NCBI GenBank assembly: GCA_030272585.1
Contig: BSYQ01000015.1
Coordinates: 186,001 to 250,000 of the forward strand
DNA from: Bryopsis sp. KO-2023
Taxonomy: Eukaryota > Chlorophyta > Ulvophyceae > Bryopsidales > Bryopsidaceae
Length of the DNA stretch: 64,000 bases
Direction: 5' to 3'
Shown: piece after piece, positions 16,799 to 45,499 of the stretch
Layout: every line of letters begins with the position of its first letter
Position numbering within the stretch: position 1 is the stretch's first letter
Made by a program: the position numbers and the translations under genes
The notes under the pieces: generated by a model
The model's input: the letters and a program-made list of their open reading frames with translations, nothing else
What the model was told of the DNA's origin: nothing
Database searches by the model: none

Positions 16799-17090
16799 AT
16801 GCTGTGAATGTGATTGTAATGCTGTGATTGTAATGCCGTGACTAATAATGATTGACCGATGTTGGCGGAAATCAGCCAGCGGCCGACATTCCAGCGGCCG
16901 ACAACCACCAATCGCCGACACACCATCTGCCGCTGAAGCAAGAAAAACTGACTCGCGGCAACCACGCCTCTTGAAAGCCGCTCAGATAACAACCCGTGAA
17001 ACCGTGACTGCCCAAACCGCCCCCAAGAAAACCAGGCCCAGACGGTGTAGGCTCCTTTCTTGAATTGTGATGGTGACGGCGGCTGGGGTC
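16799..17090 (+). repeat. Left-end direct repeat of unit A with iteron-like start
   Basis: It begins with three related tandem motifs (GCTGTGAATGTGATTGTAAT, GCTGTGATTGTAAT, GCCGTGACTAATAAT) and continues with AGCGGCCGAC and GCGGCTG-type motifs. Nearly identical to 26710-27010. A 71-75 codon open frame is kept in both copies, but the copies are too alike for that to mean coding. Confidence 0.75.
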
Positions 17091-17195
17091 AAGCGGCTGA
17101 GCAAACATGTTGTAACCCTGCTGACCAGCCGCCTGGCCTGAGCTGATGCATGAAACCCTGACTGCCCAAACCGCCCCCAAGAAAAGGCTCAACGT

Positions 17196-17426
17196 TTGGA
17201 AGCGGAAACTGGTTTAATACAGATTCAAAGTTTGTTGGATCATTTCGATTGTGCGCCTTTTTCTAGTGAAACTACGGCTATTCGCCAAGAACTTTTAGAG
17301 AGTTTATTAAGGCAGACAGCTATCGTCGAGGATATTTCGACTTCTTTCGCTTTGGCTTTTTTTTTTGGTCAGATTATGAGTACCTTTGTTCGTTGCTGTC
17401 TATCGTTGATCGACTCGTCCACCTGA
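17196..17426 (+). other. Unassigned open frame of 76 codons in unit A
   Basis: The predicted peptide is fairly protein-like (a leucine/glutamate-rich helix, LEAETGLIQIQSLLDHFD, then RQELLESLLRQTAIVED), and it lies where unit B carries the replicase. The frame may extend a few codons upstream. I recognise no family. It could be a remnant of an exon or of another transposon gene. Confidence 0.25.
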
Positions 17427-17565
17427 TGCACCTTTGCCTATGACTGTTTTTGGTTCACTGTTTATTTTGCTTTCTGGGGGTTCTATTGGTCGCAAATTGA
17501 AAGTACATTATCGGGTCCACCGCGCCATTCCTGTTAGACCACCCCGCTTTTCCAAATCTGCGATT

Positions 17566-18080
17566 TGGACTCTTCCCCCTCCTGTCCTTCTTCCCCCTCC
17601 TGCCTTTCTCCGCGGATGCGTTTTGGTTTCGTTTTGGGATGATATCCTTGGTTATTTCTCCTTGGACTGTTTTTTGTATCTACTTGCAATACACGCTCAA
17701 GCTTCTATGTATGTAATTTTTGGTTTGCTTTGATTCGTTTGTGCTTGAGTTCGTGATTGTGTTAATGTTAGACTTTGTGTTTATGCTTTTTCACGGCCTT
17801 TATTCGTATCACCACCAGACACTTATCTTCCCCCTCCTGTCCTTCTGCCCCCTCCTGCCTTTCTCCGCGGATGCGTTTTGGTTTCGTTTTGGGATGATAT
17901 CCTTGGTTATTTCTCCTTGGACTGTTTTTTGTATCTACTTGCAATACACGCTCAAGCTTCTATGTATGTAATTTTTGGTTTGCTTTGATTCGTTTGTGCT
18001 TGAGTTCGTGATTGTGTTAATGTTAGACTTTGTGTTTATGCTTTTTCACGGCCTTTATTCGTATCACCACCAGACACTTA
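17566..18080 (+). repeat. 255-bp perfect or near-perfect tandem duplication
   Basis: The stretch with the CCGCGGATGCGTTTTGG motif at 17609 recurs at 17864, exactly 255 bases on, and identity continues to the CACCACCAGACACTTA end of each copy. Only a base or two differ (CTTCTTCC against CTTCTGCC). This indicates a recent duplication inside unit A. Confidence 0.9.
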
Positions 18081-18216
18081 ACTTATGTTAAAAAAAAAAC
18101 AATTAGTACCAACGAAAACCAAAACAAACCCACAGCCCATACGAAAAACCCAAACCAACCCATACATACCGCACGCGAAAAACCAAACAAAACCATCAAG
18201 CGGCTAACACCACCCG

Positions 18217-18633
18217 CTATTCTTTCCCTTCATCCAACGCTCTTTTTTTCTGGACCATCGGCCGCTTTTCTTTCCCTTCACTCCTATCACCTTCAGCGGC
18301 TTTCCTTTTGGTATTTTTAGGCTCCTTTCCTTTCGCTGCGTCCGACTCAGGTTGGAACCTATATAAACTACGGCTTAGGTCGTCGTAAGACACTTTTACT
18401 ATCCCTAACACGTCTCTCGCCAGCGACTCCTTTTCAGCCCTTAGCGCTTCCGTGACCTTAGCCTGTTCGATCTTTTAATTTTTAAAACCTTCGATGCGAC
18501 TTTCCAGCGCTTGCTTCTCTGCCGCCCAGACCTTTTCATCTTTTTCGTACCCCGTGATTCGAGCCATCATCGGTTCAAGCGCCGCCCTCAAACTCGACAG
18601 TTCCTCAGCTTGCGTGGACTTCTTTGGAGCCAT
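18217..18633 (-). pseudogene. Accessory gene a, unit A copy (in-frame stop)
   Basis: Read on the minus strand from ATG at 18633, it opens MAPKKSTQAEELSSLRAALE, matching the intact copy in unit B (MPPRKSTQAEELASLRAALE). A TAA at 18477-18475 interrupts the frame after about 52 codons, at the point where the intact copy reads LQKEKM. The frame then continues to a stop at 18217 with a tail of K/R/E-rich GKEKR motifs. In the intact gene these features describe a coiled-coil protein with a basic, repetitive C-terminus. Function unknown. A stop-spanning read-through is possible but nothing suggests it. Confidence 0.75.
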
Positions 18634-18854
18634 TCTGTCTCGAAGTTTGATTCACACCAAGAAAAACACATCGCACAACACCAAATCGCTTTAAAAAGAA
18701 CGTTTCAAAACGATTTGACGCCGCCAACACAACGTCCCAACACGATTTGACGCCACTAACACAACGTCTACACGAAAGAACACATCAATTACATCAAACA
18801 AACAAAGAAACGAATAAACCTAAGGGGAAAGCACAATTGTTCAGTGTATCGAAC

Positions 18855-20015
18855 ATGGATCCCCGCGACCAAAGAATTCTCGAGTTGGAAGAAGAAAACC
18901 GCGCATTGCGCGAGGAGCTCAGGGGTGCACAGGAGGCGCTGGCGGTGATAAGAACAATCGTCGCGCACACAGGAGTGGCGGCGCAAGCAACGGAGACGCA
19001 GGAAATCGCAGAAACAGAAATCGCAGAAACAGAAATCGCCACCGAGAGAGAGGTGGAGGAAATTGCGGAAACAGGCATCGCGAAAACAGGCATCCCAGAA
19101 ACAGAGATCGCCAGCGGCGGACAGGTGGAGGAAACCGCGGAAACAGAAATCGCAGCACCCACCGTGGACGTAGGGGGGGGATCATCCACCATGGACTTTG
19201 CGGCAGATTCCAACGTCGGCGTGGAGTCAGCACCGAGCACGTGGAAGCATCCACCAGCGCCGCTGCCGCCTGCGATCAGCCAGCCAGCGCCGCCACCTGG
19301 GATCAGCCAGCCACAGCCACCGCCTGGGATCAGCCAGCCGCCACCACCACTCGCAACACTCGCTATCGGCCCAATGGGGGAAATATCCACCGTGCAGTTC
19401 GACGCGACAGATTCCACCATGGACTTTGGCGCAAGAGGCAGCTTCCAGCCGCCACCGCCGCTACCACTGCCTGGGTTCAGCCAGCCGCCACGGCCGAATC
19501 CTCTCAACAGACGCCGCGGCACAAGGGTGAAAGGCCCGAGAGTCCCACAGAGTCGTGAGCATGCTTCGTCGGCGAGATCGCAGCCGCTGACGTACCCGGT
19601 AGAGAAGTCCCCGTCATCATGTTTTTTGTGCAAGAAAAAGAAAAAATGGCAGGTGCTTACGAACAGATTTTGTACGAAGCATAGTGTCTGCGATAAAAAA
19701 TCATGTATTGACAAATGGTGGGTTTTGAAATCGCTTAGAATGGCCGAGGGGGGGGGCAGGCCAAGGATCGAAAAGATTTTTATTCCATCAAATATGCAGG
19801 GACCACCAGGTGGTGACGACAGACCCTGCCACGTCTGTCAGATAGCAGGGGACGATTTTCGTGGGCGCGAAGTTTGTGAGACGATAGCTAGGGCATACGT
19901 GGAAGTGGGCAGGAAAAAAAACATTCCGACAGAGAAACCCACAGATTTTGATGAAATGCCAACAGATTATCATGGTGAATGGTGGTACGCATACGGGCAA
20001 CAGGCCGAGGGGTGA
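18855..20015 (+). CDS. Accessory gene b, unit A: coiled-coil, proline-rich, Cys-rich protein
   Basis: 386 residues from ATG 18855 (MDPRDQRILELEEENRALRE). This start aligns with the unit B start. Residues 1-45 are a leucine-zipper-like coiled coil. A low-complexity part follows (EIAETEIA-type repeats, then proline-rich GISQPPPP repeats). The C-terminal 170 residues are well kept between units: a basic RRRGTR, CFLC followed by five Lys, C-x2-H-x3-C, then CHVC...REVC, and an end block DFDEMPTDYHGEWWYA. The Cys/His spacing suggests zinc binding, perhaps to nucleic acid, but it fits no finger type I know. The diverged middle and constant C-terminus suggest selection on the latter. Confidence 0.7.
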   Translation: MDPRDQRILELEEENRALREELRGAQEALAVIRTIVAHTGVAAQATETQEIAETEIAETEIATEREVEEIAETGIAKTGIPETEIASGGQVEETAETEIAAPTVDVGGGSSTMDFAADSNVGVESAPSTWKHPPAPLPPAISQPAPPPGISQPQPPPGISQPPPPLATLAIGPMGEISTVQFDATDSTMDFGARGSFQPPPPLPLPGFSQPPRPNPLNRRRGTRVKGPRVPQSREHASSARSQPLTYPVEKSPSSCFLCKKKKKWQVLTNRFCTKHSVCDKKSCIDKWWVLKSLRMAEGGGRPRIEKIFIPSNMQGPPGGDDRPCHVCQIAGDDFRGREVCETIARAYVEVGRKKNIPTEKPTDFDEMPTDYHGEWWYAYGQQAEG

Positions 20016-20074
20016 TTCTGTAGACAAACCATTTTTTGTTTAAAAAATAAATGAAACATTTGCTTGATGAATTC

Positions 20075-22290
20075 ACAACCTGTTTTCCCAGCCGCTCCAA
20101 CTGAGCCGCCACAACCTGGTCGCTCAGCCGCTTCAACTCAGCCGCCGTGAATCATCACGTCACCACATGCCAACATGAAAAAAAAAAACCACCGTTGCAG
20201 CGGCTGAGACCAGGCGGCAGCACATCCTCCCCACAACCCGTTTACCCAGCCGCTTCAACTGAGCCGCCACAACCTGGTTGCTCAGCCGCTTCAACTCAGC
20301 CGCCGTGAACCACCGTAAACCACCAGATCACCTTACCACAATCCATGGAAAAAAAAAAACCACCGTTGCAGCGGCTGAGACCAGGCGGCAGAAAATCCTC
20401 CAAAAAACCCGTTTTCCCAGCCGCTTCATCTGAGCCGCCAGAACCTGGTTGCTCAGCCGCTTCAACTCAGCCGCCGTGAACCACCGTGAACCACCAGATC
20501 ACCTTACCACAATCCATGAAGAAAAAAAAAACCGAAAGAAAATCTGTTGCAGCGGCTGAGACCAAGCGGCAGAAAATCCTCCAAAAAACATGTTTTCCCA
20601 GCCGCTTCAACTGAGCCGCCACAACCTGGTTGCTCAGCCGCTTCAACTCAGCTGCCGTGAACCACCAGATCACCTTACCACAATCCAAAAGGAAAAAAAA
20701 AAACTCTGTTGCAGCGGCTGAGACCAGGCGGCAGCACATCCTCTAAGAAACACGTTTACCCAGCCGCTTGAACTTGATCGCGTTGTGTTGTAAACCAAAT
20801 GTTGAAATTTTATGGTGACGGCGGCTGAATCCAGGCGGCTGGTGATCAGCGGCACAACCAGTTTTTTCAGCCGCTTGAACTCAGCCGCTTGAACGCGTTG
20901 TGTTGTAAACCAAATGTTGAAATTTTATGGTGACGGCGGCTGAATCCAGGCGGCTGATGATCAGCGCCACAACCAGTTTTTTCAGCCGCTTGAACTCAGC
21001 CGCTTGAACGCGTTGTGTTGTAAACCAAATGTTGAAATTTTATGGTGACGGCGGCTGAATCCAGGCGGCTGATGATCAGCGCCACAACCAGTTTTTTCAG
21101 CCGCTTGAACTCAGCCGCTTGAACGCGTTGTGTTGTAAACCAAATGTTGAAATTTTATGGTGACGGCGGCTGAATCCAGGCGGCTGGTGATCATCGCCAC
21201 AACCAGTTTTTTCAGCCGCTTGAACTCAGCCGCTTGAACGCGTTGTGTTGTAAACCAAATGTTGAATCGAGGCGGCTGATGCTCACCGCCACAACCAGTT
21301 TTCTCAGCCGCTTCAAGTCAGCCGCCGTCACCACCAGATCACCTTACCACAATCCAAAAGGAAAAAAAAAAACCCGTTTGCAGCGGCTGAGACCAGGCGG
21401 CAGCACATGCTCCCAAAAACCTGTTTACCCAGCCGCTTCAACTCAGCCGCCACAACCTGGTTGCTCAGCCGCTTCAACTCAGCTGCCGTCAACCATCAAA
21501 TCACGTCACCACATGCCAACATGAAGAAAAAAAAAACCCTGTTCCAGCGGCTGAGACCAGGCGGCAGCACATCCTCTAAGAAACCTGTTTACCCAGCCGC
21601 TTGAACTGAGCCGCCACAACCTGGTTGCTCAGCCGCTGCAACCACCACATCACCTTACCACAATCCAAAAAGAAAAACCAAAGAAAATCTGTTGCATCGG
21701 CTGAGACCAGGCGGCACCAAACGCTCCAAAAAAACTGTTTACCCAGCCGTATCAACTGAGCCGCCACAATCTGGTTGCTCAGCCGCTTCACCTCAGCCGC
21801 CGTGAACCACCAGATCACCTTACCACAATCCAAAAAGAAAAAAAAAACAACGTTGCAGCGGCTGAGACCAGGCGGAAGCACATGCTCCCCACAACCCGTT
21901 TACCCAGCCGCTTCAACTGAGCCGCCACAACCTGGTTGCTCAGCCGCTTCACCTCAGCCGCCGTGAACCACCAGATCACCTTACCACAATCCAAAAAGAA
22001 AAAAAAAACAACGTTGCAGCGGCTGAGACCAGGCGGAAGCACATGCTCCCCACAACCCGTTTACCCAGCCGCTTCAACTGAGCCGCCACAACCTGGTTGC
22101 TCAGCCGCTTCAACTCAGCCGCCGTGAGCAATCAAATCACGTCACCACATGCCAACATGAAAAAAAAAAAACCGTTGCAGCGGCTGAGACCAAGCGGCAG
22201 CACATCCTCCCAAAAACCTGTTTTCCCAGCCGTTTCAACTGAGCCGCCAAAACCTGGTTGCTCAGCTGCTTCAACTCAGCCGCTGAGAAC
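20075..22290 (+). repeat. CAGCCGC/GCGGCTG satellite array of unit A
   Basis: Two interleaved families. From about 20765 to 21270 the unit is exactly 115 bp (GAACGCGTTG at 20891, 21006, 21121, 21236). On both sides (20075-20760 and 21290-22290) a different unit of about 150-185 bp recurs, marked by ACCTGGTTGCTCAGCCGC and TTACCACAATCC and an A-tract. Every unit contains several TCAGCCGC or GCGGCTGA octamers, often facing each other, so strong hairpins can form. Short open frames across it are by-products of the repeats. Confidence 0.9.
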
Positions 22291-22451
22291 CACATTTCTA
22301 CAAACAGTCCGGGTCACAAACTGTCCAATCGACTCTATCGTGAGTCAAAACACTCCCATCACAGAGCGCCACGGCACAAAAACAAATACACGTCCAAAAA
22401 AAACACCATTCTGACTTTGTTGAAACGAACCTCCAACCTGCAACAAGCAAC

Positions 22452-22901
22452 ATGTCCAGCATTACCCTTCACGACGAAAAGTCAATGCGTATCAGGGTGA
22501 AGAACTTGGAAACGCATGCTACACGCCTGCAAGAACGTGTCGATCAGCTGGAAGCCAGTTTGCGACAGATAGCCGGTACCGTACGCGACGAAGAGAAAAA
22601 GAGGAAGAGGAAACAACCCATGGCGGCCTTCGTCATACAAGCAAAGCGGATGGCGGCCATCAGCGGAGTACAGACGCCTTATCGTCACGACACTTTGGAA
22701 CGAGCGCAACGCATGGCGTCGGCACTGCAAGACGGTACCGCGACAACTACACAAAAGGTCATAGACATCGAAGAAGAGGGACTGGCGGCACAAATTCATG
22801 AGCTCCATGAACGAACTAGTGTTTTCCTGAAAAAAGAAACGGACGACATCTACGAGTTGGATGGCGAAGACCTTGCGTTTTCTTTCCCTGAATCGACTTA
22901 G
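22452..22901 (+). CDS. Accessory gene c, unit A: small coiled-coil protein
   Basis: 149 residues from MSSITLHDEKS. A coiled coil (KNLETHATRLQERVDQLEASL) is followed by a basic KKRKRK stretch that could be a nuclear signal, then KRMAAIS, a linker, and an acidic end with HELHERT and DGEDLAFSFP. The unit B copy is 152 residues and matches from end to end, differing mainly in the linker. Substitutions with preserved length and motifs suggest that it is a real gene. Family unknown. Confidence 0.7.
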   Translation: MSSITLHDEKSMRIRVKNLETHATRLQERVDQLEASLRQIAGTVRDEEKKRKRKQPMAAFVIQAKRMAAISGVQTPYRHDTLERAQRMASALQDGTATTTQKVIDIEEEGLAAQIHELHERTSVFLKKETDDIYELDGEDLAFSFPEST

Positions 22902-22933
22902 ATGTTTTTTTTTGTTTTTTGGGGGGGGGGCTT

Positions 22934-23399
22934 TTGGTTTGGTTTGGTTTGGTTTGGTTTGGTTTGGTTTGGTTTGGTTTGGTTTGGTTTGGTTTGGTTT
23001 GGTTTGGTTTGGTTTGGTTTGGTTTGGTTTGGTTTGGTTTGGTTTGGTTTGGTTTGGTTTGGTTTGGTTTGGTTTGGTTTGGTTCGGTTTCGTTTCGTTT
23101 GGTTTCGTTTGGTTTCGTTTGGTTTCGTTTCATTTGGTTTCGTTTCGTTTCCTTTGGTTTGGTTTGGTTTGGTTTGGTTTGGTTTGGTTTGGTTTGGTTT
23201 GGTTTGGTTCGGTTTGGTTTGGTTTGGTTTGGTTTGGTTTGATTTGGTTTGGTTTGGTTCGGTTTGGTTTCGTTTCATTTGGTTTCATTTGGTTTCGTTT
23301 CATTTGGTTTCGTTTGGTTTGGTTTCGTTTGGTTTGGTTTCGTTTGGTTTGGTTTCGGGTTGGGTTGGGTTGCGTTGGGTTGGGTTGGGTTGGGTTTGA
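22934..23399 (+). repeat. (GGTTT)n pentanucleotide array
   Basis: About 460 bases of GGTTT units, nearly pure in the first 150 bases, then mixed with GTTTC and ATTTG variants, ending in (GGGTT)n. G is almost confined to one strand. It sits between genes c and d of unit A and is absent from unit B. All long open frames across it encode only LVWFG or NQTKP repeats and are rejected as genes. Confidence 0.97.
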
Positions 23400-24102
23400 T
23401 CGCAACAAAAAAAACAGCGGCGGATAATTCAGTGTGAAGGAACTCTATACGATTGTAATAAAAACAACTATTTACAAATACCTGAAAACTCTTTCCTTCG
23501 CTCGTTCGACACGCAGCGTGGGAGTTGTATTCGAACAGGATTCAACCAAAGCAACCCAAATCAACAACAACACAACACTATACCGTTGGACACATTAAAA
23601 ACCCATTGGAAATCAGGTTTCGCAAAAGGTACAGCCTGGGAAACCCAAAACAGCAAACTTGACATTCTCACAAGACAAAATATCCTCGCCCACAACTGTC
23701 TGTATTAATAAAATCACTAAACCATGCTCGCGCATGGCCCCACTGTCACTAGAACGAATAACACGCACGGACAAGAACAACCAACAGAATACTGGTGAGT
23801 ATGCTAAACAGTTCACACTACCAGACTTCATCAGCCTCCCAGCGAACAAACACAAAAAATGAAGATGATCTGATCTTTGAAACCAACAGAACCAACAACA
23901 TGATCTTCAGTAAATCGCAATCAAACAATAATTAAAATAATAATTATTCACAAATACAATCACAATAATAACTTACAATACAATCAATCAAACAATCAAA
24001 CACTCACAATACAACAACATCCACTAATCCAACAACCTGCAACCTATTTCAACCAACAACAAAAGAACGGATCCTAATAACAACAAAATAATAACAAGCA
24101 GG
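23400..24102. other. A-rich spacer between the pentanucleotide array and gene d
   Basis: I see no supported gene. The last 200 bases are very A-rich and unstructured, ending in AACAACAAAATAATAACAAGCAGG before the gene d start; the unit B copy has a comparable A-rich leader. Confidence 0.4.
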
Positions 24103-24709
24103 ATGTCAGAAAGTGATATCGATATTGACATTGCTGCGCTGGAACAAGTGGAGAAAGTGGAAAAGGTAACACGAAAAAAACCAGCACCTTTTCCAAATGT
24201 CACACGTTTTCTTAATTTAAACACTACCTCCAATGTCGTGAGCCAAAATGTGTCCAATGCAGGAACTACGGCAATGTGGCAAGTTTTCTATGGAGAATTT
24301 GCAGCGTGCCATGCGCTCACAACCATCCATGAATCCAAAAAAACCATCCCCAGACAGCACCGCAAGCGTTGGCCGGCCTCCAGCCACCGCAGATCTTACT
24401 GCCGCGGAACAACCTGCAGCGCCCCCCGCGTCCACCAGAGCTGCCCCACCACCCAAACAACCACTACTGCCCACCCTGACGACACCAGCTCCACGTCACA
24501 CTTCCAAGGCATTGTCGGCGCAGGTTCATCAGCCGCCACACGCGCCGGCAACAAAACCACCACCACAGCTGCGTCGCAGCACACAGGACCGCTCCGATGC
24601 AAAGCCCACGGCGCGCGCCAAGGACACACGCCAACAGCCGCCACCAGTTGAGAAAGTCGCGACGAAGCGACAGTCCAAGCGTCTCCAAGATCGAGAAGCA
24701 CATGGATAG
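24103..24709 (+). CDS. Accessory gene d, unit A: spliced acidic/proline-rich protein
   Basis: Exons 24103-24165 and 24263-24709, phase 0, 169 residues. The 97-base GT-AG intron is at exactly the same codon as in unit B, and only splicing joins the conserved parts: MSESDIDIDIAALEQVE(K/R)VEK, then ELR...FSM(E/Q)NLQRAMRS. The rest is low-complexity (Pro, Thr, Ala) with a basic end (KRQSKRLQDRE). The acidic N-terminal helix plus the short NLQRAMRS helix are the kept elements and could be interaction motifs. Family unknown. Confidence 0.65.
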
Positions 24710-25009: not shown

Positions 25010-25503
25010 ATGGACCGGCGTGAGCAAGAACGTATATTTCTGTACAACGACCTACAAAGTCTGAGCAGGAAAATCAAGCAACTAATATTGGTAAGACGTA
25101 CAACAACACCTCGCCAACGCACCCTGGAAATAATTCAAAAACACCTCGACGATTACATGCTGGATCTTGAAAGATGATATTGTATGTTCAGGAAATATAT
25201 TACCTGAGTGGGCTCGACGACGACGAAATCCAACATCTTACGCAGCAAAGCGCCTCACAGACGCCATCCACCACAACACATGACACACCAGCTCCACAAC
25301 CACCACAGACAATGGCGACAAGCACCAGCAGCGACCACGCATGTCCGAGTCGTCCCCGTCACCGCCGACCACTCCACCTCATACTACCACACCCGCTTCC
25401 CCAAGACAATATGGGCATCCAAGACAGCTCGCCACCAAGACCACAGCGCCCAGACACACCTACACACACTGATGATATGGATCACACATTAGAATCACCA
25501 TAA
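25010..25503 (+). CDS. Accessory gene e, unit A: small spliced protein
   Basis: Exons 25010-25090 and 25192-25503, 130 residues. Exon 1 (MDRREQERIFLYNDLQSL...) is a charged helix and matches the unit B copy residue for residue over most of its 27 codons. The GT-AG intron is at the same place, and exon 2 opens EIYY in both. Beyond that the two copies use different frames of related DNA, so one tail is frameshifted or the tail is not constrained. An unspliced alternative of 55 codons (stop 25177) is also possible. Family unknown. Confidence 0.5.
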
Positions 25504-26136
25504 ATCATCACCGCCTCACCTGCAGAAGGGGCGATGTGGGAGAGACAATAAAAAAACGACATGCAAGGAGGCCAACACATGAAATACAATCGGGAGCGGG
25601 GACAGGGGAAATAGGGAAAGACGGCAAAGGACACAAAATATGTTAATAGGCCATCCTGGTGTTGTCAATATGTAATGGACGTTTGTTCCTTTGTTTGTTT
25701 ACTATCAACATTCTTTGCCTTCGTGAAGTTTACATCCTCACATAAAAATCATGATAAAAACATACATAGCGTACAGCGCACCACCCCGATCATACATCCG
25801 CTTTCTGCAAATCTTTCAATACAATCTGAAATTCAAGTTCCATGTTGAACACTTAACCTATTTCCTTGATACAGATAACATCCTTGATAAAATGACATAC
25901 CACAGTACTCCTCCCTAATGATTATTAATTAACTATCCTCAATCAAAAAAACATCATCACCGTGACATCACACAATTCACCAAACACAAAAATATTTAAA
26001 CCACACCGGCCATTTGTATCTACCATACTTCCACACCTCGACTCACTAGCCGACACTCTTTCCGGACTCCAATTCCGTACGGATCCAAACCCCGTGATCC
26101 ACAAGCGCCATGCCTATCCGTCACCCAGATACCGCA
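25504..26136. other. Spacer between genes e and f, unit A
   Basis: No supported gene. Unit B carries an extra small gene (g) in the matching interval; I could not find a counterpart here. Confidence 0.4.
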
Positions 26137-26445
26137 ATGCCCACACCATCCCTTGGAATCGCGCTCTCCCATGCCATCAGGCAGCTCCGTTGGAACATGT
26201 ACGATGGAGCATACTTCCTCCAAGAGTTACGTGACGCACGGACACCACAAGATATATCAAGAGCTCGCTGGATCTACAACAGTATTGCCCGCAACATGAT
26301 CAACAACCTATCAATGATCATCTCCCTCATACCACGTGCACGAGGCGTGCATGACCTCACCGAGATACGTGATGCATGGATCCATCGATACAATCTCTCC
26401 TCACGTCATGAGCGTCATCCCATAAACGGCGTCACACGCCATTGA
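26137..26445 (+). CDS. Accessory gene f, unit A: 102-residue helical protein
   Basis: The start at 26137 gives 102 residues, the same length as the unit B copy from its aligned Met. An in-frame Met at 26110 would add nine residues. Kept motifs are LGIALSHAIRQLRWNMYD, LRDAR(T/S)P, LSMIISL, a W(I)xRYN block and HP(I/V)NG near the end. The pattern predicts three or four amphipathic helices with many Arg and His. No family recognised. Confidence 0.65.
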   Translation: MPTPSLGIALSHAIRQLRWNMYDGAYFLQELRDARTPQDISRARWIYNSIARNMINNLSMIISLIPRARGVHDLTEIRDAWIHRYNLSSRHERHPINGVTRH

Positions 26446-26709
26446 CCACAAATATTGCCTAAAGGGGATAGCATTGCTCAGGGAAGTCTAAAGAGGAGGT
26501 CTACAAAACCAGCATCCACCTTTGTTGAAGTAGAATGGAGTGATTGGGGTTTTGGAGTTTTGGGATTTTGGGGTGACACCCATTGGAGCGGTGGGCTGTC
26601 GTAGTGCTGTAAACATTGTTGAGACAGATATCCTTTGCAAGGAAGATATCCTTGATGGCGGACATATCCTTGGTGACGAAGATAACATTACTTCAATCAT
26701 CAAAACTTG

Positions 26710-27290
26710 ATGCTGTGAATGTGATTGTAATGCTGTGATTGTAATGCCGTGACTAATAATGAAAATGATCGATGTTGGCGGAAATCAGCCAGCGGGCGAC
26801 ATTCCAGCGGCCGACAACCACCAATCGCCGACACACCATCTGCCGCTGAAGCAAGAAAAACTGACTCGCGGCAACCACGCCTCTTGAAAGCCGCTCAGAT
26901 AACAACCCGTGAAACCCTGACTGCCCAAACCGCCCCCAAGAAAACCAGGCCCAGACAGTGTAGGCTCCTTTCTTGAATTGTGATGGTGACGGCGGCTGGG
27001 GTCAAGCGGCTGAGCAAACATGTTGTAACCCTGCTGACCAGCCCCCTGGCCTGGCGTTGCACGGGGTTGTGGTTCTTCCCCCTTTCTTGAACTGTGAATT
27101 GTGATGGTGACGGCGGCTGGGTTGAAGCGGCTGACCAAACACGTTGTAACCCCGCTGACCAGCCGCCTGGCCTGAGCTGATGCATGGGGTTGCGTTTTTT
27201 CCCCCTTTTTTGAAATGTGATGATGACGGCGGCTGGGTTCAAGCGGCTGAGCAAACACGTTGTAACCCCGCTGATACCATTCAGCCGCCT
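26710..27290 (+). repeat. Left-end repeat of unit B plus extra GCGGCTG units
   Basis: The first 300 bases match 16799-17090. Unlike unit A, two further copies of a GACGGCGGCTGGG...GCGGCTGA(G/C)CAAACA..GTTGTAACCC(C/T)GCTGA unit follow. Unit A seems to have lost these by recombination between repeats, since it resumes at a sequence found earlier in itself. Confidence 0.75.
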
Positions 27291-27481
27291 AGACTCCAAA
27301 TGATTGCATAATTCCATTACTTCTACATTCTAGATCTTTATGATTTCATAGACGAAATCTGATGTCCATCTAGAGATGTAGTACAGTTTGTAGATGGACA
27401 GGTTTATATAAGGTGAGAAAAATCCTTTTGCTATTCATTGTGAATGGTGTATTCCAATATTCTTCGGACAGATTATATATT

Positions 27482-30400: not shown

Positions 30401-31534
30401 GCACACAATATGTTTCGTATCCCGATAACAACACCAGGGGAGAGACATCCTGATGGCACAATAGAATGCAACGTTTCAGCAAATTCACAACGTGCCGCCC
30501 TTTTGATTGCAGCAACGATTATTATATGGGATGAAATTGCTATGGCGCATCGTTGCCAAGTTGAAGCGGTTGATACGTTGCTGCGTTTTCTACGAAACAA
30601 TCAACAACCCTTTGGAGGTGTTATTTTCATTATATCCGGTGATTTCCGACAAACACCACCCGTTGTTCTTCAAGGAACACAAGCGGATATTGTGGACGCG
30701 TCTTTGAAGTCCAGTCCTTTATTCCAACACTTCCAACATCTGAAGTTAACCATAAATCAACGGGCAGTGCCAGGGAGTCAATGGGCGAATTTTGTGGATA
30801 CTATAGCGATGCAACCTTCAACAAACACATTATCTTGCGTTAATTTTCCAAGCGAGATTCAAATATTCACTGATTGCGCCGCAGCAAGCCAATGGCTAAA
30901 TATTGGTTGTACTCCAGAAAACAAACACAACCGGGCGATCTTATCTTTTCATAATATTTTGGTGGATCAACACAACGAGATATATTTGACAGCAATGTCT
31001 GGCGAAGAACATCGATTTGAGTCTTTCGATACTGTTGCAGAAGATGCTAATATTGATGATGAGTACCTGCACAATGCGACAACCCCAGGAGTGCCACAAC
31101 ATGTTTTGAAGACGAAGATTGGAGCTTCGATGATGATTCTACGGAATTTGGACCCAACAAAACGCTTGATGAATGGAACAAAAGTTATATTCCGTTCTAT
31201 TGTTTCACGACGGCTTTTGGAGGTCCAAATTGCGGGGACAAACAACATAGCATTGATTCCGCGAATCAAATTTGATTTCAAAATTACAAATACTGGAATC
31301 ACAATGCAAAGATCACAGTTCCCATTAACATGTGCGCATGCTATAACTGTGAATAAGTCGCAAGGGAAGACGTTGGATAGAGCGGTTCTGGACATTCGGA
31401 CAGCTGCATTCATGCATGGCCAATTGTATGTTGCCTGTGGACGTGTGCGCAATGCCGAAAATTTCGGCATCTTGACAACTGCAGATGGAAAAACTTCAAC
31501 AGACAATGTCACATACCAAGCATTGGTGGATTAG
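27482..31534 (+). CDS. Helitron Rep/helicase, intact
   Basis: 1350 residues from ATG 27482 (MGDHETPQ); an in-frame extension to 27413 exists. Order: N-terminal region with a CAFC...CC Cys cluster; Helitron-like N domain; Rep domain with FITMTCNPHWPEI (about 390-402), the HUH motif PHAHI (about 460) and the double-Tyr block YLYKYIYKG (about 577-590); then a PIF1-type SF1B helicase with Walker A APAGRGKT (about 931), Walker B IIIWDEIA (about 1014), SGDFRQTPP (about 1053) and NKSQGKTLDRA (about 1291). It nicks and unwinds DNA for rolling-circle transposition in the nucleus. Length and all key residues are normal and there is no OTU or RPA domain. No intron or frameshift, so probably active. Confidence 0.97.
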   Translation: MGDHETPQLQANVASTSTMPSLPWLQNAGTVLPLLSNMGTNDAEQVFDRRCAFCNALLMPSETKTMCCTKGKHVLARLQPLPLELRSIYKTRDFSRLSRQMNNQFCLTAIGTSTDGGFDTFAGPAFVRLHGKVYHRALPTSMEGPLRWFIHAPAERNYRNLNQDTVNSIASILDSVNPHVQAFRRVSQFLDTVPPVDTIEVYHQMDDAHADEIAVVFKTVADRETPSPRYAIRFPINGGPMDAEFVSIHSSIYECLQYPLFFVTGEIGWFAPPAERPDICYRSTKGEPISLMMYTRQRILCEPRFGQLGRLMQEYVVDMQCRIESQRLNYMRSPEFQANLLLRRECETIGADGSNPGGRIFLPSSFTSGPRRQRQLTQDGLAIVARMGRPSYFITMTCNPHWPEIQALLSPGETAFDRPDVTVRVFHRYLAQFTKDLRRGLFFGRKAQYILRVVEFQKRGLPHAHIAIRVEGDQPVAPEVIDTFVSAEMPPAEQPEQQELVKTFMTHRHTPRCSTGTARCSYDYPKNIQMATTFDERGFVQYRRRTQNDTLVVPYNMRMLEKYKCHINVEVAATVNIVAYLYKYIYKGPDRTNVATQDESNEITAYENCRYLSATEAIWRIFGFQTNTRDPSVGTISIHLPGADTILVTPGEAPSVAAQNQKSMLLRYFERPQGFRSLTIIEYYEKYRILSRSEALEYRGGERYLDQCNRMIVPRVQSRYLCRMWMVMPRVGELFYLKLLLKFHAADSFVSLRTIDNTVYRTFHEAAIAANLVQNDEEASMCLAEACAALYSPSHLRSLYTILVCDGANAPLLFNMYGNYLGQDFNQGASTGLHPFDAPPPPLTPHAKNELLKDIWRRLRAAGKDPIDTSLPQPLQNNTELTRAMLAYDLDEYTTILDEMLSIASNEQRGIYDTLQQAVHNNRGGLFFIDAPAGRGKTFVLKMITMATRMQQHIALVTASTGVAAIDHDGGTTAHNMFRIPITTPGERHPDGTIECNVSANSQRAALLIAATIIIWDEIAMAHRCQVEAVDTLLRFLRNNQQPFGGVIFIISGDFRQTPPVVLQGTQADIVDASLKSSPLFQHFQHLKLTINQRAVPGSQWANFVDTIAMQPSTNTLSCVNFPSEIQIFTDCAAASQWLNIGCTPENKHNRAILSFHNILVDQHNEIYLTAMSGEEHRFESFDTVAEDANIDDEYLHNATTPGVPQHVLKTKIGASMMILRNLDPTKRLMNGTKVIFRSIVSRRLLEVQIAGTNNIALIPRIKFDFKITNTGITMQRSQFPLTCAHAITVNKSQGKTLDRAVLDIRTAAFMHGQLYVACGRVRNAENFGILTTADGKTSTDNVTYQALVD

Positions 31535-32213: not shown

Positions 32214-32282
<69 letters not shown>

Positions 32283-32527: not shown

Positions 32528-33103
32528 TCAACCAGATTGCCTTGCGAACGCCTCCCAATTCTCTCTTATCTCGTTTTTATCACCACCAGCACCCCCCTTT
32601 TTTTTTTCCGCCACCATCCGCTTCTCTTTGCCTTCGTTCCTCTCACAATCAGGAGCTTTTTTCCTCTCCACTGGAACACGCTTCTCTTTTGTTTCGTTCC
32701 TGTCATTGTCCACCACTTTCTTTCTCTCCACCGCAACCCGCTTCTCTTTACCGTCGTTTCTACCACTGTCGACCACTTTCCTTTTCTTGACATCCTTTTC
32801 ATTCGTCAAACTACACTCAGATTGGAACTTACGAAGACTCGCGCTCATCCCAGCGACAGAAGTTTTCACTATCTCCAGGACTTCTTCCACCACCGAATCC
32901 CTTTCCCCTTTGACAGCTTGAGCAACTTTACTCACTTCCATTTTTTCTTTTTGAAGTGCTGCGATGCGACTCTCTAGCGCTTTCTTCTCTGACACCCAGG
33001 CCTTTTCAGCTTCCTCATACCCAGTGATTCGAGCCATCAGCGGCTCAAGCGCCGCCCTCAGACTCGCCAACTCCTCAGCTTGCGTGGACTTCCTTGGAGG
33101 CAT
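32528..33103 (-). CDS. Accessory gene a, unit B: coiled-coil protein with basic repeats
   Basis: 191 residues on the minus strand, ATG at 33103. The N-terminal half is a long coiled coil (AEELASLRAALE, SEKKALESRIAALQKEKM). The second half repeats a motif of about 17 residues, (G/E)KEKR(V/M)xVE(R/K)KK..D..RN, three to four times. It is the only accessory gene on the minus strand and is divergent from gene b (about 240 bases apart), so the two may share a promoter. The unit A copy is broken by a stop. No family recognised; a structural or nucleic-acid-binding role would fit but is a guess. Confidence 0.7.
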   Translation of the reverse strand: MPPRKSTQAEELASLRAALEPLMARITGYEEAEKAWVSEKKALESRIAALQKEKMEVSKVAQAVKGERDSVVEEVLEIVKTSVAGMSASLRKFQSECSLTNEKDVKKRKVVDSGRNDGKEKRVAVERKKVVDNDRNETKEKRVPVERKKAPDCERNEGKEKRMVAEKKKGGAGGDKNEIRENWEAFARQSG

Positions 33104-34342: not shown

Positions 34343-34464
34343 ATGGATGATTGTATGGACAAACATAAAATACTTTTTGTAAAAAAAAAAGGAAAAAAAC
34401 AGAGTGTTGCAGTGTTACGTCATGGAATTTAACCATCATATTTCGCAAACGTTTTACAACGCAA

Positions 34465-35675: not shown

Positions 35676-35842
35676 TCATCACCACACTATGCAATAATAT
35701 GCAATCATCACATACCACTATTACCACAATTTCTTATCGCCACCTGTGAAAGAACATAGGTCCCTTCAATCCCATCACACCCCAAAACTTTAAAACGACG
35801 ACGCTCTGACTCTGAAAAACATTTTTCGGAGGTGCAACAAAG

Positions 35843-36301
35843 ATGACCAGTATTACCCTTATTGACGACAAGTCCACGCGCAACAGGATCAAAAACTTAG
35901 AAACACATGCTGCGCGCTTGCAAGAACGAGTGGATGAGCTCGAAGCCGCTCTGCACAAGATAGCTGGCACAGTACGCAATGAGGAGAAAAAAAGAAAGAG
36001 GAAACCAGCCATGTCAGCGTTTGTGGCAAGTGTGAAGCGGATGGCGGCCATCAGCACGGTCAATACACCTTACCAACATGACAGTATTGAACGAGCGCAC
36101 AAAATGGCGATTCCGCAGAATGACGCTACCACGCATACTCCTACAAGCCATGACATCAAGACCGATATCGAGGAAAAGGAACTCGCAGCACAGATCCACG
36201 AGTTGCATGAACGAACTGCACGTTTCTTGAACAAAAACGATGATGATATTTACGATACAGATGGTGAAGATCTTGCCTTTTCTTTTCCTGACGCATTCTA
36301 A
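35843..36301 (+). CDS. Accessory gene c, unit B: small coiled-coil protein
   Basis: 152 residues from MTSITLIDDKS. Coiled coil KNLETHAARLQERVDELEAAL, basic KKRKRK, KRMAAIS, NTPYQHDSIERA, and the acidic end HELHERT...DGEDLAFSFP are shared with unit A. Differences are scattered and no frame is broken. Role unknown. Confidence 0.7.
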   Translation: MTSITLIDDKSTRNRIKNLETHAARLQERVDELEAALHKIAGTVRNEEKKRKRKPAMSAFVASVKRMAAISTVNTPYQHDSIERAHKMAIPQNDATTHTPTSHDIKTDIEEKELAAQIHELHERTARFLNKNDDDIYDTDGEDLAFSFPDAF

Positions 36302-36841
36302 ACAGTTTCGGGGGGTGATGTAAAGGGTTCCGTTCAGAGAGAGTTTGGGAGGGGTGGGTGTGGTTTCAGTATTATATTATTATTTGGATATTTATTTGTT
36401 TGTAGGGATGTTTTATTGGATATTCCGTCATCGCGCAAACTAAGCTTTCCTAGCTTTAAATGCGTTTGGCGACCCTGTTTGTTCGTTCCTGTTTGTTTGT
36501 TTGTTTGTTTGTTTGTTTCTTTTTTGTTTCTTTTTTGTTTGTTTTGTTCGTTTGTTTGTTTGTATGTGTTTCGACACGTTGTGTTCTCGACAATTACATG
36601 GATTACTGTAATGCAACTTTTTCTGTGAGAATGCTGACTGAAGGTCATTATTTTAATACACGACCGGCAAGTCTCCACCATGATCTGATTTGATGTTTGG
36701 TTGTTTGTTTGTCTTTAAAAAATGGAGTTACATTGGAATTTAAATGACATCTAAATGCGACACACACCAACATCCACTAATCCGAACAAGCTTCAACCTA
36801 TTTGAACCAACAACAGACAAACCAATCCTCATAATATCAAG
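36302..36841. other. Spacer between genes c and d, unit B
   Basis: Holds a (TTTG)n-like tract at about 36488-36565. Nothing else recognised. Unit A has the (GGTTT)n array in the matching place. Confidence 0.5.
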
Positions 36842-37361
36842 ATGTCAGAGAGTGATATCGACATAGACATCGCTGCACTGGAGCAAGTGGAAAGAGTAGA
36901 AAAGGTAACACACATAAACCTGTACAAATTGTGCACATGCAACAGTGATACAATAAAACAAACACGCCAAACACCAAATCAGATCGTTCTCATACATTGT
37001 CAAAAACACATTGGGTTTCATGTAGGAACTACGCCGGAAAAACGACTTTTCGATGCAGAATTTGCAGCGCGCCATGCGCTCCGAGCCACCCTTGGAGCTG
37101 CCAAAACCATCTCCAAAGCCCGTGAAAGAAGTCAGCCAGCCTCCGCCGACCAGTGATCATACTGCCACGCAGAACCTTGCTGCACCTGCCACATCCACGA
37201 TATCCGCTTCACCACCATATGGTACACTGGTGCCCACTCTGACCACGACGGCGGCGCATCACACTACCAAGACATCAGCACCACGAGTCGGTCACCCAGT
37301 GCCAACAATAAAGTCACCATCACAGCAGCGGCCCGCCACGGAGAAACGCTCCGATGGATAA
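36842..37361 (+). CDS. Accessory gene d, unit B: spliced acidic/proline-rich protein
   Basis: Exons 36842-36904 and 37026-37361; 121-base GT-AG intron, phase 0, 132 residues. The spliced product reads MSESDIDIDIAALEQVERVEK, then ELRRKNDFSMQNLQRAMRS and a Pro/Thr-rich tail ending ATEKRSDG. The tail is shorter than in unit A, which continues for about 35 more codons to a basic end. Introns differ in length and sequence while exons align, which supports real splicing. Confidence 0.65.
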
Positions 37362-37784
37362 CCCACAGCCCGTGCAAAAGACACACGCGAGCAGCCACCA
37401 CCACTTGAGAAGATCGCCACCAAGCGTCAGTCGAAGCGTCTCCAAGTTCGAGAACCAAAATGACACTTCAAATACAAGACTATATTTTCGGTGCAAACAT
37501 AGTGGGACGTTGGGTTCAACTGACACTGTTGTGAGAGCTTCTGCCCATATGATTTTCGATTTTTGGCACAAAATACCATGTAACTCGAGGTTTCCTCCTT
37601 TCATCTTCAAGCGTCCAGGTCATGGGTGTGCAACACTACAAACAAAAAATAAAATAAATGATATATCACTCATGACAACATAATGACATATGAAATCAGT
37701 GCAAAAACACAGTATAAAAACCCAAAGTCGCCATTCTCGCAATCATATTATCCAGGTTAGACATTGAAGTGAAAAATACACACA

Positions 37785-38118
37785 ATGGATCGACGCGAGG
37801 AAGAACGTATACTTATCTTTTACGACCTACAAAGACTTATGAGAGAAATAAAGCGCCTCATATCGGTGAGCTCAAAAACATAGCCCACACCCCCAAATCA
37901 CCCTTTTCATACAAAAAAAAAGAGATAAAAGATATAACGAGGTAGAGATATTGTTCGTTCAGGAGATATATTACCCACACCCAGCGACAACGGATGTCCC
38001 ATGCGTCCCCGTGCCCGTCGCCGTCGATCACTCCATCTCATACTACCTCACACGTTCCCATCACCAACGACGGATAGTCCGGACACACCTGCAGCGGCTG
38101 CAGAAAAATGCGTTCTGA
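37785..38118 (+). CDS. Accessory gene e, unit B: small spliced protein
   Basis: Exons 37785-37865 and 37963-38118, 78 residues (MDRREEERILIFYDLQRL... then EIYY). The first exon has exactly the length of its unit A partner. After EIYY a deletion relative to unit A shifts the frame, and the product ends early. Alternatively the unspliced frame ends within a few codons after the first exon. Treat the second exon as tentative. Confidence 0.45.
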
Positions 38119-38301
38119 CCCCCCAATCCAGGTCGTTAATTGTTCCACAATGCAATGCAAATTCTGTTGATGACATTGTATGTTATTCATATGCAATGAC
38201 GTTACACTTTGACATTTCACGTCCGACCCTGACTCAACCTATCAAAACAGCAAGCACATCCAAAACCCCCCTTTCGCACAATCAAGAGACAACCCACAGC
38301 A

Positions 38302-38601
38302 ATGGAAGCACAAAACCAAAGAGAAATCAAATCCTTACGCAACGTAGTCGCCCTTGCACGCATAATCCGTTGGCAACTACGTGCTGCTATATCGTGCAAT
38401 CAAGGCGAAGAGGCAATAACAACGCTCATCCACAGGTGCCGTCACCTAGAGATCCGCATCATCAACGTCCTAACCGCAATCGCCGAGACGATGCCACCCG
38501 CCTCCTACGATGCACGCAACCTCATGCTAGCGCTCCGGAGCCAAATTCATCGCCTCCACGTCCTCGTCCGCCACCGTAACCCCGCCAATCACACATCGTG
38601 A
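38302..38601 (+). CDS. Accessory gene g, unit B only: 99-residue helical protein
   Basis: Starts MEAQNQREIKSLRNVVALAR. The profile is of amphipathic helices rich in Arg, Ile and Leu (LARIIRWQL, IIVLTAIAE-like, LMLALRSQIHRLH). Its size and pattern resemble gene f (ALSHAVRHLQW, LSMIISL, RIRDMWIRRYN), which lies about 180 bases downstream, so g and f may be old duplicates; identity is low. No counterpart found in unit A. Confidence 0.45.
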   Translation: MEAQNQREIKSLRNVVALARIIRWQLRAAISCNQGEEAITTLIHRCRHLEIRIINVLTAIAETMPPASYDARNLMLALRSQIHRLHVLVRHRNPANHTS

Positions 38602-38784
38602 TCACACATGATTCAGGTCAATCACCTCATCCATAATATATTACCACACATTAAAACAATTAAATCTCATGATTATATCCCTTGCACCCTATATAAACCC
38701 TTGCTCATGTGTCCTTGCAGGCCTATTTCCACCCTTCCTTCCACTACGCATCAACCACCAGCAGACCGGCCGCTAACTCAGCTG

Positions 38785-39093
38785 ATGTCCGATCCGTCGC
38801 CTGGGCTTGCCCTCTCCCACGCCGTCAGACACCTCCAGTGGACAATGTACGACTCCATGTCGTTTCTACGTCGCCTCCGTGATGCACGTTCGCCGCGGAC
38901 ACTTGCACGAGCTCGTCGCAACTGTGAAACCACTGACCGGCTCATGATTGACGCTCTATCAATGATCATCTCTCTTATGTCACATGGACGAACCGCCCAA
39001 GACCTCGCAAGGATACGAGACATGTGGATCCGACGCTACAACACCCTCTACTTCCACATGCAGCACCCCGTCAATGGTACCATCCACTATTAG
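38785..39093 (+). CDS. Accessory gene f, unit B: 102-residue helical protein
   Basis: MSDPSPGLALSHAVRHLQWTMYD start, chosen because it gives the same 102-residue length as the unit A copy. The frame is open upstream to 38608, but that part does not match unit A. Kept blocks: LRDARSP, LSMIISLM, RIRDMWIRRYN, HPVNGT. Last gene of the unit; the conserved right-end stretch starts about 450 bases later. Confidence 0.65.
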   Translation: MSDPSPGLALSHAVRHLQWTMYDSMSFLRRLRDARSPRTLARARRNCETTDRLMIDALSMIISLMSHGRTAQDLARIRDMWIRRYNTLYFHMQHPVNGTIHY

Positions 39094-39990
39094 TTTCGGG
39101 CCATCTGAATCTTATCGATCCGTTGTGTTTGTGAAGCGGTGATAAAAAAGGACCGAGGGACCGTTTTTGTTATTCTCGCTTTTGTTCGATGATCACCAGA
39201 TGTTGGGTTGGATGTTCGCCACTATTATCTTCTTGCGTTTTCTTTGCAAAGGCACGATAGCACTACGATACAATGAATACCAACGGCCTAAACCGACCAC
39301 GGGGGGGGGTGTTTCCATTTGGTTTTTTATTGGGGTTTGGGGTTTGGGTTGGGTGGGGTTTCAGAGCACCCGCACAAGATTCACACAGAAGATGGGTGTG
39401 AGGCGACATAACTCACAAGACGGTTCAGAAGTGGAATGTCCAGGACCAACTTGGAGCAGGCGTTCCCCTTATGTTGGAGGCTGTGCAGGGTGTAAACATT
39501 TTCTATGAACGTTTATTGCAAAGATTTCTGACAACTGGTCGCTTGGATTCCACCTTTGTTGAAGTAGATTGAGCGATTGGACTTTTGGGGTTTTGGGATT
39601 TTGGGGGGACACCCATTGGGACGTGCTGTAAACATTGTTCGCCTTGCAAATGTTTCCATCCTTTCATTCCCTTATTACATCCAACATAAAACCAAGACCC
39701 CTTCCAACATCAAGCCACCATTCACACCCGTCATGCTCCAAACACCACAAACTTTTGTTACAATCTGACAATCGTACACCCGCCTTTTGCAAATCTGCGA
39801 TTTGCGTCCTTCTGCTTGTCTTGTTGAAATGTAGGCATCGTGGGTCGCACCCTGCCAGGGAAGATGTGTCAGTTCAAGAAGAGTTTCCAGTCCCCCCACG
39901 AGTGACGGGATGACCACTGCGACATTCGGATTGCCATGCGATTGTCATCATCATCATGTCATATCATCATCAATATGTCTTGTCATCATC
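39094..39990. other. Right end of unit B and flank before the LTR element
   Basis: Contains the right-end stretch shared with unit A (39549-39639), a perfect 7-bp-stem hairpin at 39789-39805 (GCAAATC TGC GATTTGC) and a CATCAT-rich run before the LTR insertion. No gene seen. Confidence 0.5.
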
Positions 39991-40384: not shown

Positions 40385-40385
40385 T

Positions 40386-45478: not shown

Positions 45479-45499
45479 ATCAGAAGCGCAGTAGAAGCG

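Follow-up and report, generated by a model that had tools for sequence, protein, structure and literature searches.

The window analysed here is the whole stretch of 64,000 nucleotides of contig BSYQ01000015.1 (positions 186,001 to 250,000, forward strand) from Bryopsis sp. KO-2023. Positions 16705–39818 of this window are one Helitron, a single mobile element, with a Rep/helicase gene (RepHel) and two sets of small genes, labelled A in the first half and B in the second. The features are as follows:

16705–39818, + strand: whole Helitron, 23,114 bp (23.1 kb); five two-ended copies, each at a different A^T site
16705–16795, + strand: 5' terminal sequence TCTCTACCTTG..., also present at C6:5893842 in a Helitron derivative
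16796–17140, + strand: first copy of the repeat
17185–17567, + strand: region ending in a second hairpin like that of the Helitron 3' end (17553); probably the relic of another element, lying where unit A lacks RepHel
18217–18633, - strand: gene aA, a coiled coil followed by a basic tail; the window copy alone has an in-frame stop
18855–20015, + strand: gene bA, 386 aa, with leucine zipper, proline-rich linker and Cys/His module
20074–22310, no strand: first motif array, 115–161 bp repeats with TCAGCCGC motifs in both orientations
22452–22901, + strand: gene cA, 149 aa, coiled coil
24103–24709, + strand: gene dA, exons 24103–24165 and 24263–24709
25010–25503, + strand: gene eA, exons 25010–25090 and 25192–25503 (second exon uncertain)
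26110–26445, + strand: gene fA, 111 aa
26707–27300, + strand: second copy of the repeat, then motif repeats ahead of RepHel
27413–31534, + strand: RepHel, open frame of 1373 aa, first Met at 27482; HUH, YxxKY and GRGKT motifs
32528–33103, - strand: gene aB, 191 aa
33347–34342, + strand: gene bB, 331 aa
34429–35690, no strand: second motif array, in which long stretches run opposite to their counterparts in the first (357 bp at 98%)
35843–36301, + strand: gene cB, 152 aa
36842–37463, + strand: gene dB, exons 36842–36904 and 37026–37463; internal stop in 3 of 5 copies
37785–38118, + strand: gene eB, exons 37785–37865 and 37963–38118 (second exon uncertain)
38302–38601, + strand: ORF g, 99 aa, unit B only
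38785–39093, + strand: gene fB, 102 aa, with a distant relative in a KDZ-like transposon
39789–39818, + strand: 3' hairpin GCAAATC-TGC-GATTTGC and terminal CTTG

The left end of the element reads A^TCTCTACC and the right end consists of the hairpin followed by CTTG^T. Five two-ended copies were detected in the Bryopsis sp. KO-2023 genome, all of them inserted between A and T (A^TCTCTACC ... ^T), and their 99.8–100% identity in RepHel at different sites indicates recent mobility. RepHel occurs once, as originally predicted. Its product displays the motifs GLPHAHI, YLYKY and GRGKT and matches Helitron_like_N (E 1.1e-42) and PIF1 (E 1.5e-51), the composition of an HUH-Y2 Rep joined to a Pif1/SF1B helicase. 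The anatomy of the element and its copies show that it is autonomous and was moved by its own RepHel from its outer ends. Like the canonical Helitron1 it has 5'-TC, a 3' hairpin, A^T flanks, HUH-Y2 and Pif1; unlike it, the element ends in CTTG instead of CTRR, is 23 kb long and carries two accessory cassettes and motif arrays. The derivative at C6:5893842 retains the 5' end and motif repeats, and a search of it for cargo genes and for a right end found neither. Our literature search found no paper joining Bryopsis, genome and Helitron.

Genes a to f occur twice, around RepHel, and follow the predicted order a(-), b, c, d, e, f(+) in both halves. The original prediction had taken these halves for two tandem units that start with the same repeat, the second ending at 39640. 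The repeat is real (16796–17140 and 26707–27053, 98% identity in two ungapped blocks), but its first copy starts 91 bp inward from the left end, its copy in the second half lies within the element, and the actual right end is at 39818. The collinear duplicated genes and the internal repeat would suit two independent neighbouring elements; two separate tandem Helitrons are nevertheless rejected, because each of the five copies encloses both halves within a single pair of ends (16705 on the left and 39818 on the right in the window). In addition, TCTCTACC occurs on the sense strand of the window solely at the outer 5' end, and the one further hairpin of the 39790 type on this strand is found at 17553 and not at the junction. 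Two neighbours are thus refuted as the present-day arrangement, which is a duplicated cassette inside one 23.1-kb element, possibly originating from an old fusion of two elements.

Both halves have a to f, and unit B has a further ORF, g; g was also considered as a diverged f and rejected, having neither BLAST nor profile support. Genes d and e can be read only through a GT-AG intron, and the frames of the second exon of e differ between A and B. The predicted lengths hold for c, and the 102 residues given for f in both units are found in B, whereas fA has 111 (102 if read from its second Met).

The A and B pairs of a to f have diverged (dS 0.74–1.58), with dN/dS of 0.35 for a, 0.28 for b, 0.23 for c, 0.37 for d and 0.25 for f; the value for e (0.23) is that of exon 1 only (27 codons, bootstrap 0.06–0.66). 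The strongest constraint was detected in the Cys module of b (dN/dS 0.11). Purifying selection on all tested pairs, each with dN/dS below 1, is far beyond chance, corroborating the proposal of selection since the two sets split. Helitrons often pick up pieces of host genes (PMC6431247), and the cassettes could be functionless captured pieces riding along. We consider this very unlikely, since dN/dS of 0.23–0.37 at dS about 1 argues against it for a to d and f, their reading frames are uninterrupted in most of the five copies (the stop in aA is missing from the other four), and no ordinary single-copy host gene that could be a source was seen genome-wide for a, b, c, d exon 2 or f. Genome searches with c, d (exon 2) and a matched only the five Helitrons, apart from a single degraded remnant locus of c and another of a. 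Genes a to f are Helitron cargo of unknown kind, as first proposed, kept by selection and travelling with RepHel. What the original prediction missed is that the Helitron shares b and f with other elements: both have relatives in a KDZ-like transposon, and b is found in gypsy-type retrotransposons as well.

The Cys-rich module of b has further carriers, namely a KDZ-like DNA transposon and Ty3/gypsy elements of two lineages, in which it follows the integrase. Profile comparisons of the module gave E 2.8e-9 between Helitron and retrotransposons, 2.2e-10 between Helitron and KDZ, and 2e-10 between retrotransposons and KDZ, and two controls reached probabilities of 1.3 and 0.1. When the KDZ sequence was shuffled six times with its C/H positions kept in place, one shuffle attained probability 88 (score 44, against 62 for the unshuffled sequence); Cys/His spacing therefore accounts for part of the match. 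Among the matches listed, 78 of 85 further b-module matches have an integrase upstream, and the spacing is near-constant, 76 of those 78 lying at 644–656 or 1639–1681 bp. Two pairs of retrotransposon b genes gave dN/dS of 0.21 and 0.22. The pol of the L033 type has the order RT-RNaseH-integrase and a chromodomain, and the L032 type was examined for its integrase only. The candidate transposase of the KDZ element matches PF18758 (E 3.6e-4) and CxC5 (E 8.6e-4), neither match reaching the curated cut-off, and its ORF is present at 6 of 7 loci. These sequence comparisons show that, within one genome, b proteins of a single family reside in a Helitron, a KDZ-like cut-and-paste transposon and gypsy-type retrotransposons of two lineages. 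In the gene models at NCBI (P0001–P0003), b has its Cys/His module spliced out or altered. We argue, contrary to these models, that b is one uninterrupted ORF including the module, which should be coding because of its low dN/dS and its relatives. This C-terminal module looks zinc-binding.

Gene f lies beside b in the Helitron and in the KDZ element alike. In the KDZ element, a coiled-coil gene on the minus strand matched a no better than shuffles did, and it therefore resembles a only in position. Two ORFs of the L032-type retrotransposon, one of 153 aa before b and one of 169 aa, were considered as relatives of c and f, respectively, and neither received support. In a retrotransposon subfamily whose integrase is 85–87% alike to that of the L032 type, none of nine copies has b among the matches listed, so not every close relative requires b. 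No relative of b outside Bryopsis was found in 5.8 billion proteins, of which the 7994 candidates with the most words in common were scored; given this number, and since the Bryopsis retrotransposon b genes were not returned, absence elsewhere is weak evidence. Two single-protein queries of viral contigs found no relatives, and known structures searched with the b-family profile gave only coiled-coil noise (E 0.11 or worse).

The abundance of b in retrotransposons (78 of the 95 b loci behind 100 listed matches, with b behind pol) raises the alternative that b is a post-transcriptional or particle protein in an env-like position, acting in RNA binding or packaging, which originated in the retrotransposons and was captured by the Helitron and the KDZ element. 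This seems improbable to us, considering that neither DNA element needs RNA packaging and that both carry f beside b as well as motif arrays. The motif TCAGCCGC occurs 76 times in the Helitron against 1.36 expected, and GTGCCGCY 31 times in the KDZ element against 0.51 expected; each element thus has its own arrayed variant with a common GCCGC core. TCAGCCGC is absent at L034 and L038, and the window shows no clear enrichment of GTGCCGCY (6 against 2.4 expected). The best parts of the arrays are 98% alike between the Helitron halves, while the genes have diverged to dS about 1, and it may be that the arrays are no more than DNA prone to repeats. A tandem array is missing from the L033-type retrotransposon, and the two gypsy loci examined lack enrichment of the GCCGC core, hence array binding cannot be the sole role of the b family.

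Our main reading, held by analogy at a probability of roughly 0.4, is that b binds the Helitron's own arrays and keeps the element active, as VANC does for the VANDALs of Arabidopsis. b would dimerise through its N-terminal zipper and bind the short motif of its own element (TCAGCCGC in the Helitron, GTGCCGCY in the KDZ element), and this target would have been amplified in arrays around b. By recruiting or blocking chromatin factors, b would let the element escape silencing; a, c and f could be its partners, and the two diverged cassettes might provide a wider target range or dose. The broader proposal of a previously undescribed zinc-binding family for anti-silencing or element licensing across both TE classes, exchanged among rolling-circle, cut-and-paste and reverse-transcribing elements and re-targeted in each DNA element via its own GCCGC-core variant, is conceivable and in our view rather doubtful. 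Alternatively, the cassette proteins may be replication or transposition helpers that bind the arrays, organise the rolling-circle intermediate and choose the strand end or protect ssDNA, as is thought for RPA-like genes in other Helitrons. The motif repeats directly ahead of RepHel (27006–27288) fit such helpers, and plant Helitrons are described as carrying a single-strand binding protein gene (PMC4683698). We regard helpers as unlikely nonetheless: the b family also resides in KDZ-like and gypsy elements, with unrelated transposition mechanisms, and among the matches listed none of a, b, c or f lies near the genome's other large Helitron family.

Anti-silencing by b would resemble the VANDAL/VANC system, in which a transposon-encoded protein with conserved and variable regions (PMC5735166, PMC10398659) is described as binding short element-specific motifs in non-coding tandem repeats (PMC5735166). 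The Helitron and the KDZ element display such motifs, unlike the L033 retrotransposon. VANCs carry DUF1985/DUF287 and sit in VANDAL elements, whereas b has no such Pfam match (none to DUF1985 in bA and bB at E up to 0.1) and sits in Helitron, KDZ-like and gypsy elements. We infer anti-silencing for b from a likeness in working, and claim no homology to VANC. Fanzor1 is a RuvC-type nuclease. This TnpB-like protein is common to several DNA transposon superfamilies including Helitrons, as b is to its carriers, but it differs from b in sequence and the carriers named in that account are DNA transposons, not retrotransposons (PMC3627910). Similarly, the TET/JBP dioxygenases of fungal DNA transposons span unrelated transposons, KDZ and Helitron included, and according to that study none was found in retrotransposons (PMC12730594). 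They are a known enzyme family, in contrast to b, which occurs in retrotransposons and in the scanned proteins has no Pfam match to that domain. As a sense ORF behind pol, b also recalls the extra ORFs between pol and the 3' LTR of plant LTR retrotransposons (PMC7264820), except that b has relatives in two types of DNA transposon and that the LTRs of its carriers are presumed.

Neither of the precedents, TET/JBP and Fanzor1, as these are described (PMC12730594, PMC3627910), extends to a protein common to Helitron, KDZ and gypsy elements. The present element also shows that the cargo retained by a large autonomous Helitron can be several genes under selection and need not consist of gene fragments alone. 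If b is anti-silencing, mechanistically unrelated selfish DNA in one alga would share a defence-evasion module; the comparable sharing of TET/JBP takes place among fungal DNA transposons, with no retrotransposon carrier reported in that work (PMC12730594). In that case the co-evolution of a protein and its target arrays would also become testable outside flowering plants, for which the Helitron and KDZ motifs offer a ready pair of element-specific motifs. The sharing of b hints at a common survival trick of mobile DNA in its host.

The genome of Bryopsis sp. KO-2023, a siphonous green alga, comprises 91.1 Mb in 28 contigs, and the window corresponds to C15:186001-250000. Comparison of the fetched loci with the window revealed that the whole of window 16705-39818 recurs at C4:3.21 Mb, C4:2.01 Mb, C7:0.44 Mb and C13:2.38 Mb. 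In 5/5 copies the left end is A^TCTCTACCTTG and the right end is a hairpin (GCAAATC-TGC-GATTTGC) followed by CTTG^T, a 3' terminus that differs from the usual CTRR of Helitrons, and the flanking DNA differs among the five. Compared with the window copy, the genes and exons of the other four show 98.6-100% identity, except for exon 1 of dB (gene d of the right half, B) at C4:3.21 Mb, which reaches 84% and has a 12-bp gap. The frame of the single Rep/helicase (RepHel, 27413-31534) is open in four of the five copies, the C13 copy being broken by a 9.4-kb insertion (C13:2368370-2377740). Window 16705-39818 is a recently mobile autonomous Helitron of 23.1 kb. The original prediction had seen two tandem units here, but each of the five copies spans both halves as one 23.1-kb element. 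The shared sequence of about 290 bp on which that reading was built does occur in pairs, although it does not mark the starts of separate units: the 292-bp query 16799-17090 gave at least 26 genome matches altogether, with ten full-length ones forming five pairs about 10 kb apart, two strong partial ones (C10, C6) and short ones.

An internal hairpin resembling a Helitron 3' end (CCAAATCTGCGATTTGG) was observed at 17185-17567 and also at L022:8053, a locus elsewhere in the genome. The same variant is present at C10:909 kb with CTTG and T after it, so that the left half (A) may retain at 17185-17567 a remnant of a different Helitron at the position expected for RepHel. An array of TTTGG-type 5-bp units lies directly 3' of cA (22918-23400), and its length differs in at least one other copy.

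Genes a (minus strand), b, c, d, e and f flank RepHel on both sides, and g is present in the right half only. No Pfam match above cut-off was found for aB, bA, bB, cA, cB, d, fA, fB and gB; the best match of the scanned cargo was that of cB to the coiled-coil DUF7310 (E 1.4e-4; score 22.7 bits, cut-off 40). The dN/dS between halves A and B, at dS of 0.74-1.58, is 0.35 for a (bootstrap 0.20-0.58), 0.28 for b (0.19-0.39), 0.23 for c (0.13-0.40), 0.37 for d (0.22-0.58), 0.23 for e, calculated on exon 1 only (27 codons; 0.06-0.66), and 0.25 for f (0.12-0.48). For the C-terminal Cys/His-rich module of b alone it drops to 0.11 (Nei-Gojobori). These values indicate that selection kept both gene sets after their split, as had been anticipated. 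Decay is slight though visible: aA has a stop codon in the window copy only, dB has a stop in 3/5 copies, and in the C13 copy aB carries a frameshifting indel close to its 3' end and bA is broken near its start. In the NCBI models of b (P0001-P0003; BSKO_13660, BSKO_13661, BSKO_07799) predicted splicing removes or alters the conserved module. The low dN/dS of this module, together with the existence of relatives, leads us to read it as coding.

Searches of the genome with a, b, c, d exon 2 and f uncovered no ordinary single-copy host gene, corroborating the view that the set is Helitron cargo. That these genes travel with the repeat and RepHel holds, relics aside, for d exon 2 (ten matches, all inside the five copies), c (ten such matches, and in addition two short relic fragments at a single site, C2:4694008) and a (the five copies plus a decayed relic at C22:17319), but b and f also reside in other elements. 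For b there are at least 100 matches, 15 being pieces of the ten Helitron b genes and 85 lying elsewhere; f has, besides the five copies, seven distant matches (29-30% identity, E 0.003-0.004), located in a different repeated element. Further relics were seen of b at C2:5649926 and of the f of that element at C2:3880030; the relics of b, c, a and this f are signs of older carriers. Searching with Pfam PF14214 recovered the five copies together with another Helitron family, whose frames measure about 1806 aa (C11:3347457-3473943 and other sites). On C11 its copies often neighbour one another at distances of about 9-12 kb, and among the matches listed no a, b, c or f lay near this family. A RepHel-like stretch of 34% identity was also noted at L028:8789-9328; a sequence matching the 5' repeat at 74% lies about 6 kb away.

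Most of the other b genes belong to gypsy-type retrotransposons. Among the 85 listed non-Helitron matches, at least 78 have a same-strand gypsy-type integrase upstream, and seven, the KDZ copy described below among them, have none within 6 kb. Two arrangements were found. At locus L033 the b ORF (3674-4840) overlaps the 3' end of a protease-RT-RNaseH-integrase-chromodomain ORF, and 52 of the 53 listed b matches behind this integrase type lie 644-656 bp downstream of it (one at 378). At L032 the order is integrase ORF, 153-aa ORF, b, with 24 of 25 listed at 1639-1681 bp (one at 1300). The 153-aa ORF (L032:3227-3688) is coiled-coil-like; tried as a relative of c, it showed no relation. The retrotransposon b is under purifying selection in two pairs (dN/dS 0.21 and 0.22). 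Among the matches listed, 12 of 86 close integrase matches and all nine integrases of an 85-87% subfamily had no b, which counts against the generality of b in gypsy-type elements. Two Ty3/gypsy elements adjoin the Helitron on its 3' side (40263-51019), with no b among the matches listed, and a host-like ordinary gene with SMP and C2 domains follows at 52004-53497.

The element with the distant f matches (L034/L038, C9:1717501-1729500) is present at seven loci, six with an ORF that matches KDZ (E 3.6e-4) and chromo (E 5.2e-4) domains; an adjoining CxC5 cluster ('associated with KDZ transposases') gave E 8.6e-4, all three under curated cut-offs. No Helitron_like_N match was found at these loci. 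Downstream of the ORF lie a minus-strand coiled-coil gene, with no detectable relation to a, and the following relatives:

L034, zipper start 2871, module 3741-4073: b relative of the KDZ-like element
L034:5085-5411: f relative of the KDZ-like element

Profile comparison linked the Helitron and KDZ versions of b (E 2.2e-10) and of f (E 2e-5, probability 77), and the reverse search from KDZ f recovered Helitron f (E 0.003).

The aligned b module keeps C-x2-C, C-x2-H-x2-C-x4-C-x-D-x2-W and C-x2-C in 7/7 sequences. The Helitron profile matched that of the retrotransposons at E 2.8e-9 over 118 columns, including a C-terminal DYxGxW, and the latter matched that of KDZ at E 2e-10; the control profiles gave probabilities of 1.3 (CxC5 protein) and 0.1 (integrase protein). 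When all residues except C and H were shuffled, eight retrotransposon shuffles scored 16-29 against 54 for the real one, and six KDZ shuffles 13-44 against 62 (best shuffle probability 88). As judged from sequence, part of the match signal is Cys/His spacing, and homology of b across the three kinds of element is well supported.

Each Helitron b is followed on its 3' side by a large array of repeats 115-161 bp long, and long stretches of the two arrays are oppositely oriented. Their motif TCAGCCGC has 76 occurrences across the window where 1.36 would be expected; the Helitron accounts for 74, and L034 and L038 have none. In the KDZ-like element a different motif, GTGCCGCY, is repeated, with 31 occurrences within 7 kb (0.51 expected) and another 13 in L038; across the window it was counted six times (2.4 expected), including four times inside the Helitron. 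Although gene dS is about 1, the best-matching array segments of the two halves share 98% identity, which indicates concerted evolution of the arrays. The 5' end and the motif repeats (17 TCAGCCGC in L024) are retained in a derivative at C6:5893842; tblastn of the fetched 20 kb with ten cargo and RepHel proteins, from genes other than e, found 0/10, and the right end was not found.

These observations show one mobile element with selected cargo, a common protein module and element-specific motif arrays. A literature search found no protein family common to Helitrons, KDZ transposons and gypsy elements, which does not prove its absence in print. VANC, as described in PMC5735166 and PMC10398659, binds short motifs in non-coding tandem repeats, the motifs differing between related elements; it is the nearest worked-out analogue, although b is not VANC by domain. 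By this analogy the array motif would be a putative target of b. Three observations count against this: retrotransposons of the L033 type lack a tandem array, the arrays that follow b at L032 are short (39-bp and 33-bp) and do not contain the motif, and neither L032 nor L033 shows enrichment of GCCGC motifs. The main alternative to an anti-silencing role is that the cargo serves as a replication helper. Accessory proteins common to unrelated DNA transposons have precedents in TET/JBP, which PMC12730594 places in 11 lineages, KDZ and Helitron among them, and in no retrotransposon, and in Fanzor1 (PMC3627910). For an anti-silencing b, the zipper would form a dimer, the Cys/His module would bind zinc and DNA, and the outcome of binding at the arrays may be escape from silencing.
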